DNA from: Nitrososphaerota archaeon
GTDB lineage: Archaea; Thermoproteota; Nitrososphaeria; Nitrososphaerales; Nitrosopumilaceae
Length of the DNA: 64,000 nucleotides
Direction: 5' to 3'
Assembly: GCA_016872055.1 (NCBI GenBank)
Contig: VHBH01000003.1
Coordinates: forward strand, 62,001 to 126,000
Below are positions 14,507 to 35,996 of the stretch, piece by piece (position 1 is the first letter of the stretch; every line of letters starts with the position of its first letter). The notes beneath the pieces are model-generated. The model worked only from the letters and a program-made list of their open reading frames with translations. It was not told the origin of the DNA and searched no databases. The translations under genes were made by a program, and so were the position numbers.

Positions 14507-15058
14507 TTAGCTGACTACAACTTTCCCCTTCATCCAAGGACGAATAATATCAAAGTATTCGTATGTTCCAGCTTTGTCAAATTTTTGTGAGAATTTGCCA
14601 TTGGCTTCAATTATGCCTGAGTCAAAATTGCCATCAGGCCCACTCATGATGTTACCGCTGGTTATGGTATGTTTGCCAGAGTCCTTGTTTATCCAGGTAA
14701 CTGTGCCTCCCTTTTTGACCGTGGTCTCAAATGATGAATAGCATTTGTTTCCTTTTGCACAACTTTCACTATCACTAGATCCTTTTTTGATTTCTACTGT
14801 AGCTGTCGAAGTTGGCTTTCCTGTAGACTTTTTAGTTTCTTTTGTGGTCTCTTTCTTGTCGGCTTTCTTGTCGGCTTTCTTGTCGGCTTTCTTGTCGGCT
14901 TTCTTGTCGGCTTTCTTGTCGGCTTTCTTGTCGGCTTTCTTGTCGGCTTTCTTGTCGGCTTTGCTTTCTTGGGCATCTGCGTGTTGCATCATTGGCACGG
15001 TTAGGACGGCACCAAGTAATGCAAAGATCGCCACACATGCAAAAATTATCTTTTTCAT
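14507..15058 (-). CDS. Secreted plastocyanin-fold protein with KKAD repeats and lost copper ligands
   Basis: 183 residues: signal peptide (residues 1-30), nine KADK repeats as a charged linker, a Ser/Thr/Lys stretch, then a cupredoxin domain. The first ligand His is kept (GKHTITS). Where blue copper proteins have C-x2-H-x2-M, here the sequence is YFDIIRPWMKG, so Cys is Asp and His is Arg. A type 1 copper site cannot form in the usual way. The neighbouring paralogue at 15145 has all ligands. It may be structural, bind another metal, or regulate. Confidence 0.88.
   Translation of the reverse strand: MKKIIFACVAIFALLGAVLTVPMMQHADAQESKADKKADKKADKKADKKADKKADKKADKKADKKADKKETTKETKKSTGKPTSTATVEIKKGSSDSESCAKGNKCYSSFETTVKKGGTVTWINKDSGKHTITSGNIMSGPDGNFDSGIIEANGKFSQKFDKAGTYEYFDIIRPWMKGKVVVS
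14858..14963 (-). repeat. 12-nt tandem repeat array encoding KKAD (GCC type)
   Basis: Eight exact copies plus one partial copy of a 12-nt unit (AAGAAAGCCGAC on the coding strand). All copies use GCC for Ala. It forms the linker of the copper-ligand-lacking paralogue. Confidence 0.92.
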
Positions 15059-15144
15059 TATTTTGGGAACAATGCTATAACTAAATAAATTTGTTTAAGA
15101 TTTCATCATGATAATAAAATAAGAAAAATCAGAATTTCTTCTGA

Positions 15145-15714
15145 TTATTTGACGATGATTGTGCCTTTCATCCATGGATGGAGACTGCATATGTATGGGT
15201 ATGAACCAGCAGTGTTGAATGCGGTAGAAGTAGATTCTCCGCCGTTCATTAAAGCAGTCATAAAAGAGCCATCAGATGCAGCTTGCATGTGGGGCATAAC
15301 GTCTAAGTTTTTCCACAAGACTTTACCTCCGACTGCCACGGTTACAGTGTTTGGAATGAAACATTTTTCACCACATTTGGTATCTGCGCCTACTCCTTTT
15401 GGCATTTCTATTGTAACTTCTTTTACTGCTTGACCGGATGGTGCTGTTTTCATTGTAGCATCTTTCTTTGGCTTCATTTCGGCTTTCTTGTCTGCTTTCT
15501 TGTCTGCTTTCTTGTCTGCTTTCTTGTCTGCTTTCTTGTCTGCTTTCTTGTCTGCTTTCTTGTCTGCTTTCTTGTCTGCTTTCTTGTCGTCTTTCTTTAC
15601 CTTCATTTCGGACTCTTTGTGACCTGACGCAAACGCAGAGTCAGTCATCGATATACTAACAACTGCTGCCAGTAACACAAATATCGCAAAACTTGCAAGT
15701 AACTTTGTATTCAT
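15145..15714 (-). CDS. Secreted blue copper protein with KKAD-repeat linker
   Basis: 189 residues: signal peptide (MNTKLLASFAIFVLLAAVV, cut probable near AFAS), an 8-unit DKKA linker, and a C-terminal plastocyanin domain. The copper ligands are intact: His in VMPHMQAAS and Cys, His, Met in YICSLHPWMKG. It is probably a mobile periplasm-side electron carrier, replacing cytochrome c as in other ammonia-oxidising archaea. It is a tandem paralogue of the gene at 14507, separated by 86 nt, same strand. Confidence 0.92.
   Translation of the reverse strand: MNTKLLASFAIFVLLAAVVSISMTDSAFASGHKESEMKVKKDDKKADKKADKKADKKADKKADKKADKKADKKADKKAEMKPKKDATMKTAPSGQAVKEVTIEMPKGVGADTKCGEKCFIPNTVTVAVGGKVLWKNLDVMPHMQAASDGSFMTALMNGGESTSTAFNTAGSYPYICSLHPWMKGTIIVK
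15490..15585 (-). repeat. 12-nt tandem repeat array encoding KKAD (GCA type)
   Basis: Eight exact copies of AAGAAAGCAGAC on the coding strand, with degenerate units on both sides (15478 and 15586). All eight use GCA for Ala, unlike the GCC array in the adjacent paralogue. Confidence 0.92.
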
Positions 15715-34362: not shown

Positions 34363-34427
34363 TTAATTTCTTCGACGAGTTTCCGCTACAAAAGGAATAA
34401 GTACCTCACTTTAGGCATCAAGCTCAA

Positions 34428-35996
34428 ATGAGTAATTGGGACCTCATGATGCCAGGAATGGGTCTGACTGCCATAGGCATAGCCGGAGTTACCCTTTCTT
34501 ATGCTGGAATAGCGCACACATTCATTGATGGAATGCATGCTCTAACTGGCCTTACCATGTTTATAGGATTGATATTTTTGGCTGCCGGAATTTTGGACGG
34601 CGGTATTTCAACTAGCAATAGAGCCAAGGCAACGACTTTGGTTATTTTGGCAATTTCGCTTTCGTTTGGTGCTACCGCACTAATTTTTAACTCCATAACA
34701 AGCATCCCAACATTCATCGGAGTCATGCTAATTGTCACAGTTCCGGCAATAGTGATGGCATATGTATCAATGAAGATGCCGCAATACGCAAAGCCTGTAG
34801 GGCTCATATTCGTTATTGCCACAGGAGCTGCAATTTCAGCCTATGTTGGATTTGGATTATACGGACCGTCGCAATATTTGGTTGCACCCATAGAGGAAGT
34901 AGAAGAGGAAAAAATGGCTGCACCTACTGTACCAATAACTTCAATTTCAATACTCAAGGGCTCTGCAGTCCAGGGAGCACCGGACTATGATCCAGATATG
35001 GCCATAGTGCCTGCTGGAAATAATATCGAGTGGACAAACTACGACGAACTACCACACGCAGTCACTAGCTCAGCTGATGCTGGCGCTACGTTTGACTCTG
35101 GAATTATTAATGCAGGGGCAAAATATCTACTTGACACATCCAAGTTGCAGCCAGGAACATACGAGTACCTTTGTATCATACACCCGTGGATGGTAGCATC
35201 ATTTGTTTACGGAGAAGCAACTCCGGTAGTACCTACAGTAGAAATTTCAATTCTCAAGGACTCGTCCATACAAGGAAACCCAGACTATGATCCAGATACA
35301 ATACAAGTAACCAAGGGAGACACAATAGTTTGGACAAACTATGACTCTATGATGCACGGAGTCTTACATGTTGGAGACGCTCCTAAATTTGATTCATCGA
35401 TATTCAATGCAGGTGAGACATTCAAGCTAGACACATCAACTCTTGAGCTTGGCAATTATGACTATTTCTGCATAATTCATCCTTGGATGAAGGCATCATT
35501 CGACTTGGTAGAATCGTCAGGAGGGCGACTAGCAGAAGGTGCAATTGCAACCGTTCCAAACTCCGCGCCGCTAGAAACGCCAGTAGAAGATGCATCTGTT
35601 GAGATTCCTGTCGAAGTTCCCTCAGAACCAGCGACCGAAACCCCAACGGAACCAGAGATCCCAGTAGAAGAGTCATCTGTTGAGGAAACACTTTCAGAAA
35701 TATTAAGTGTACCAGCTGAGCTGGTACTAGTAGATATGGCAGTAGGCACTGCATCAAACACTGAATGTGATGATGAGTGTTTTGTTCCAAGTACAGCATA
35801 TGTTACAGTTGGAGGAATGGTAACTTGGAAAAACGCTGACACTGTAGTACACACTGCAACAGAAGTGGAGTCCAAGTTTGACTCTAGCTTAGTCATGTCA
35901 GGCGCAGAATATTCCTACACATTTGAAGAGGCAGGTACATTTGACTATTATTGCATAGTCCACCCATGGATGAAGGGTATAGTAGTCGTAGGTTAG
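34428..35996 (+). CDS. Membrane protein with three plastocyanin domains
   Basis: 522 residues. Residues 1-145 hold about five membrane helices. Three cupredoxin domains follow, at about 165-263, 268-362 and 430-522, each with an intact type 1 copper set: His in ELPHAVTSS with YLCIIHPWM; His in MMHGVLHVG with YFCIIHPWM; His in VVHTATEVE with YYCIVHPWM. A Pro/Glu/Thr/Ser-rich linker separates domains 2 and 3. It may relay electrons from soluble blue copper proteins towards the terminal oxidase. It is divergent from ctaB, 65 nt apart. Confidence 0.9.
   Translation: MSNWDLMMPGMGLTAIGIAGVTLSYAGIAHTFIDGMHALTGLTMFIGLIFLAAGILDGGISTSNRAKATTLVILAISLSFGATALIFNSITSIPTFIGVMLIVTVPAIVMAYVSMKMPQYAKPVGLIFVIATGAAISAYVGFGLYGPSQYLVAPIEEVEEEKMAAPTVPITSISILKGSAVQGAPDYDPDMAIVPAGNNIEWTNYDELPHAVTSSADAGATFDSGIINAGAKYLLDTSKLQPGTYEYLCIIHPWMVASFVYGEATPVVPTVEISILKDSSIQGNPDYDPDTIQVTKGDTIVWTNYDSMMHGVLHVGDAPKFDSSIFNAGETFKLDTSTLELGNYDYFCIIHPWMKASFDLVESSGGRLAEGAIATVPNSAPLETPVEDASVEIPVEVPSEPATETPTEPEIPVEESSVEETLSEILSVPAELVLVDMAVGTASNTECDDECFVPSTAYVTVGGMVTWKNADTVVHTATEVESKFDSSLVMSGAEYSYTFEEAGTFDYYCIVHPWMKGIVVVG

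Follow-up and report, generated by a model that had tools for sequence, protein, structure and literature searches.

A tandem archaeal cupredoxin with aspartate and arginine at copper-ligand positions, and recurrent cysteine-to-aspartate replacement in its family

Ammonia-oxidising archaea rely heavily on cupredoxins, the individual roles of which are mostly unknown. We analysed a 64,000-nucleotide stretch of a Nitrosopumilaceae genome (contig VHBH01000003.1; hereafter the window) from a species that is very probably an ammonia oxidiser, because its genome carries archaeal amoA. The minus strand of the window encodes two cupredoxin genes in tandem, A and B, which are 41% identical across 193 amino acids in pairwise comparison, and this tandem was found in seven species of the window genus. 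The original prediction had placed tandem blue copper paralogues with a common signal peptide, KKAD linker and cupredoxin fold at 14507-15714, and both open reading frames (ORFs) indeed lie there on the minus strand, each with a signal peptide and a KKAD array. The features of the locus are:

15145-15714, minus strand: gene A, putative secreted cupredoxin (ORF of 189 amino acids), the upstream copy by direction of transcription
15482-15597, minus strand: KKAD linker of A, a 12-bp tandem array of 9.7 copies (repeat analysis)
14507-15058, minus strand: gene B, putative secreted cupredoxin (ORF of 183 amino acids) with His/Asp/Arg/Met at the ligand positions
14972-15058, minus strand: predicted signal peptide of B, 29 amino acids (sequence), of the allele type found in the sister genomes G014 and G002
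14851-14962, minus strand: KKAD linker of B, a 12-bp tandem array of 9.3 copies (repeat analysis)
14507-14809, minus strand: cupredoxin domain of B, with an apparent origin by import from a lineage like G001 (amino-acid identity)
14669-14671, minus strand: His130 of B, first ligand, kept (sequence and alignment)
14549-14551, minus strand: Asp170 (GAT) of B, replacing the Cys ligand (sequence and alignment), also present in G001, G015 and G012
14540-14542, minus strand: Arg173 (CGT) of B, replacing the C-terminal His ligand (sequence), window genome only
14531-14533, minus strand: Met176 of B, axial ligand, kept (sequence and alignment)

Type 1 (blue) copper is held by His/Cys/His, usually with Met, and is recognised by an intense band near 600 nm and a small EPR hyperfine splitting, whereas an azurin C112D-like site, with two His and one Asp in equatorial positions, binds Cu(II) without the thiolate charge-transfer band. 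Gene A encodes the complete type 1 set (His142/Cys176/His179/Met182; loop C176-S-L-H179-P-W-M182), so that the C-x2-H-x2-M stretch predicted to be intact is joined by the first ligand, and its Pfam scores exceed the gathering cut-offs (PF00127, 37.2 bits against 21.2; PF13473, 30.7 against 27). A would be a secreted electron carrier of the ordinary type 1 copper kind, held by a Lys-rich linker. In B the loop reads D170-I-I-R173-P-W-M176; the Asp and Arg replacements foreseen for it are both there, but the loss of ligands is partial, as the Cys and the C-terminal His are gone (two of four) and His130 and Met176 are still present. With His130/Asp170/Arg173/Met176 at these positions B should be unable to assemble a standard type 1 copper centre, as had been proposed, beside a neighbour whose ligand set is intact. 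B also departs from the azurin C112D-like arrangement in having one His and one Asp, whereas its homologues in G001, G015 and G012 have two His and one Asp.

B scores slightly under the Pfam gathering cut-offs (PF00127, 20.1 against 21.2; PF13473, 20 against 27), but matches amicyanin by sequence with an E value of about 1e-8. Its predicted structure matches the purple cupredoxin of N. maritimus (5fc9) with a TM score of 0.71, in a model that was built on a five-row alignment, has a mean pLDDT of 67 and was used without its side-chain geometry; by this predicted fold B belongs to the cupredoxin superfamily. Neither the reading frame nor the signal peptide of B is disrupted, and its disulfide cysteines and fold residues are in place. 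Elsewhere in the window, an ORF at 34401-35993 encodes a protein with several probable membrane spans ahead of three cupredoxin domains, each of which has an intact Cys-x2-His-Pro-Trp-Met loop.

Both KKAD arrays are perfect or nearly so, and the linker of B carries a net positive charge (23 Lys/Arg against 12 Asp/Glu over 57 amino acids). The two arrays encode the same KKAD repeat with different third bases, each being nearly homogeneous, and the corresponding linkers of the sister species are without KKAD arrays; the arrays of A and B therefore seem to have expanded separately within the window genome.

Aspartate occupies the Cys position of tandem B in four of the seven species (the window genome, G001, G012 and G015, the last being Nitrosopumilales archaeon AM_0615, OMIR01000068.1). 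The ligand positions read H/C/H/M in G013, G014 and G002, H/D/H/M in G001 and G015, H/D/H/I in G012 and H/D/R/M in the window genome. Since Asp recurs among relatives, the Asp of B is no chance oddity. Across the family, 22 of 250 genomes encode a cupredoxin with the Asp-type motif (25 pattern matches, less the antisense match in G323 and two in G269 and G283 that are not cupredoxins), and 21 of these retain the C-terminal His, the exception being the window genome. A wider survey of 400 genomes from the order, with a pattern that may miss other loop sequences, detected the Asp-type motif in the window's family alone. A count over 120 genomes, by a motif search that detects solely domains with the rest of the ligand loop preserved, gave about 981 Cys motifs against 12 Asp, one Ser (G208, where the first His is gone too) and one Gly (G263) in the same form. 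Most pattern matches with neither Asp nor Cys came from reading the palindrome CATCCATGGATG in antisense, the Ser and Gly copies being those that do read as cupredoxins, and the Asp match in G323 was likewise antisense. A Cys codon is two base changes away from Asp and one away from Ser, Tyr, Phe, Arg, Gly or Trp; because Asp is the commoner replacement in spite of this distance, a carboxylate at the Cys position is likely to be favoured by selection.

Arginine at the position of the C-terminal His was found in the window genome only, among 250 family genomes that include one genome of its species. The original prediction had treated the Asp/Arg pair as one feature that might be conserved among homologues; this was not borne out, since Asp is shared and recurrent and Arg is restricted to a single genome; the histories of the two replacements differ.

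On a tree of 98 domains the presence of Asp requires six changes (bootstrap 6-7), and we conclude that Asp for Cys arose about six times independently, with both His nearly always retained. A single origin, modelled as one Asp clade, was rejected on a tree from which the three ligand columns had been masked (p-AU 4.7e-6). The four Asp-type copies of tandem B fail to form one clade on this masked tree, which makes the unity of the group unsure, and Asp may have originated or been transferred more than once even within tandem B. The other Asp groups on the tree are a clade in g28 (nine species, H/D/H/M invariant), G158 in g26, copies in g6 and g29, and G316 in g3; G409 and G411 (both g28) and G193 were found later and left out of the 98-domain tree. 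The Asp domains of g29 sit behind a longer N-terminal region, and the G316 protein is also a fusion. In g6 the Asp copy adjoins a Cys copy (L060, L061), forming a second, independent Cys/Asp tandem; these two proteins have anchor-like C-terminal sequences in common. The Asp-type cupredoxin of G193 (L124) reads Y/D/H/V, its first His and its Met having changed as well, to Tyr and Val. In L045, L062 and L063 long proteins end in an Asp-type domain; judged by eye, their N-terminal regions resemble intracellular proteins (nucleoside deoxyribosyltransferase-like, nuclease-like), an odd context for a copper domain. A search of IMG/VR for viral relatives found none, and a search of open-licence papers turned up no account of cupredoxins of the Asp type from these archaea.

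The close sisters of the window genome, G014 and G002, have B copies with intact ligands, while the more distant G001 is Asp-type. Most genes flanking the tandem share 87-99% protein identity with those of G014/G002, with dS to G014 mostly 0.2-0.5. For B, the DNA of the promoter and signal peptide likewise resembles G014/G002 (77-93% identity, against 62-84% to G001), but over the cupredoxin domain G001 is nearer, both in DNA (75-87% against 60-80% for G014/G002) and in protein (79% against 65-66%), and the dS of the domain is about 1.8 to G014 and 1.0 to G001. Judged by these identities, B is a mosaic of a sister-like 5' part and a G001-like cupredoxin domain. The simplest reading is that an Asp-type domain was imported from a G001-like lineage via a recombination event within the linker; the pattern could also have been produced by sorting of old paralogues.

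B is under purifying selection, because its dN/dS against the nearest homologue, in G001, is 0.114 (NG86), a rough value as such ratios come from counting over about 95 codons with several dS near or above 1; the expectation that B is still constrained was thereby upheld. B did not evolve significantly faster in the window genome than in G001 (9 against 6, 6 against 5 and 11 against 5 changes). Acceleration was found in A, with 27 changes in the window genome against 2 in G014 (outgroup G013, p 1.6e-6) and 22 against 7 with G015 as outgroup (p 0.008); the dS of A is ordinary and the flanking genes are without acceleration. At eighteen positions A has a residue that is absent from all six other tandem species. 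Several of these are Met residues close to the first His, gained in V-M-P-H-M ... F-M-T-A-L-M, and the four ligands of A are unchanged.

Both proteins share fold, signal peptide and a short His-Pro-Trp-Met type of loop with amicyanin/plastocyanin-type cupredoxins (nearest structures 5fc9, 9cck and amicyanin), A with the full ligand set and B with Asp and Arg in place of Cys and His. Plant early nodulin-like phytocyanins, comparable to B in being retained despite loss of copper ligands, have to our knowledge no recurrent Asp replacement. They are attached to the cell surface and belong to an unrelated lineage (family: PMC10048054). Like B, azurin C112D and C112D/M121L place Asp at the Cys ligand of a cupredoxin fold (the G012 homologue reads H/D/H/Ile), but they are laboratory mutants with both His retained, whereas B is natural and has lost one His as well; engineered azurin C112D proteins have crystal structures that contain copper (PMC8915257). 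Natural cupredoxin-like proteins without type 1 ligands also occur in bacterial iron uptake, as FtrB (Cup-II) and EfeO-type (Cup-I) proteins (PMC11966278). FtrB, encoded with the FtrABCD permease, has an Asp-x2-His copper pair, whose Asp is required for Cu2+ binding, together with Glu iron-binding residues (PMC11966278). Its Asp-x2-His is the motif of the B homologues that retain the His, in place of which window B has Asp-x2-Arg. The FtrB/EfeO-type proteins form a distant family with other ligands, an added sheet and a part in iron transport, unlike B, which is amicyanin-like and has a recent Cys-bearing ancestor. Because azurin C112D binds copper and FtrB needs its Asp for Cu2+, the H/D/H/M proteins are, by analogy, likely to have non-blue metal sites.

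In the reading that we favour, the ammonia-oxidising archaea of this family would have repeatedly derived Asp-for-Cys cupredoxins from blue copper proteins, B being one of them. The ancestral B probably bound Cu(II) or Zn(II) in a non-blue site with an oxygen ligand, resembling that of azurin C112D, because His/Asp/His/Met is complete in most Asp-type relatives. The cupredoxin domain of B would have been swapped in the window genome for an Asp-type domain by intragenic recombination (allelic replacement), and the exposed His ligand would then have changed to Arg. As only His, Asp and Met remain and a cation faces the Asp, the site would most likely be shut by an Asp-Arg salt bridge, a contact suggested by the ligand geometry of known cupredoxins, with weak metal binding or none. 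Tethered in the envelope, B would be retained for functions exercised through its own surface, such as pairing with A or spacing it, and would not carry electrons; we infer its metal content, the Asp170-Arg173 salt bridge and its partner role beside A. The roles suggested earlier for B, as scaffold, metal chaperone or decoy, would look alike at the level of sequence. That B descends from an Asp-ligated non-blue cupredoxin and is now a metal-free or weakly binding envelope protein beside A has, on the sequences at hand, about an even chance of being right. More tentatively, and with somewhat less than an even chance, these archaea would have repeatedly made an Asp-ligated non-blue class, kept partly in tandem and spread by recombination, of which window B is now a metal-free, salt-bridged member.

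B may instead still bind Cu(II) through His130, Asp170, Met176 and water, as a buffer or chaperone of the non-blue type 2 or type zero-like kind (the term 'type zero' reportedly comes from Lancaster et al. in 2009), with Arg173 adjusting its properties or preventing the exchange of electrons. This is a real possibility, if an unlikely one: it would fit the recurrence of Asp and its preference over Ser, Tyr, Arg and Gly, the retention of His130 and Met176 in B, and the behaviour of FtrB, in which H121A retained Cu2+ binding and D118A lost it (PMC11966278), but retention of the C-terminal His in all other Asp-type genomes suggests that it is needed there, and an imidazole, a carboxylate and a thioether beside a guanidinium would probably make a weak site. 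We think it rather improbable that B is decaying under relaxed selection, its Asp/Arg state functionless, in a lineage whose genome is smaller and encodes fewer cupredoxins. The window assembly is indeed 1.24 Mb (98.8% completeness) with four Cys-type motifs, by contrast with 1.6-1.7 Mb and nine or ten such motifs in G013/G014, its Arg is unique, the neighbouring A evolves fast, and further ligands have been lost in other Asp-type or Cys-less copies (G012, G193, G208); yet the undamaged frame and signal peptide of B, the retention of its disulfide cysteines and fold residues, its low dN/dS against G001 and its unexceptional rate speak against decay. A substitution unique to this genome and accompanied by relaxed selection had been named in advance as grounds for abandoning a new role for B, and of these the uniqueness holds for Arg, whereas relaxed or altered selection was found in A and not in B.

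No date for the His-to-Arg change follows from dN/dS; it could have arisen very recently, be limited to this strain or reflect an assembly error. The codon CGT differs from CAT by a single A-to-G difference, which would fit Arg being a variant or an error in a species, represented here by a single genome, that is normally H/D/H/M, but the frame is open, nothing else is amiss nearby and the remaining changes in B are ordinary, and we regard this explanation as very improbable.

Under the favoured reading of B as one of a recurrent Asp-type class, a Cys-to-Asp replacement made repeatedly by nature in a type 1 site would be the wild counterpart of laboratory azurin C112D. Matched intact, Asp-type and Asp/Arg-type versions of one gene in close species would make roles of cupredoxins beyond electron transfer testable, and the recurrent Cys-to-Asp class is the lead most worth pursuing.
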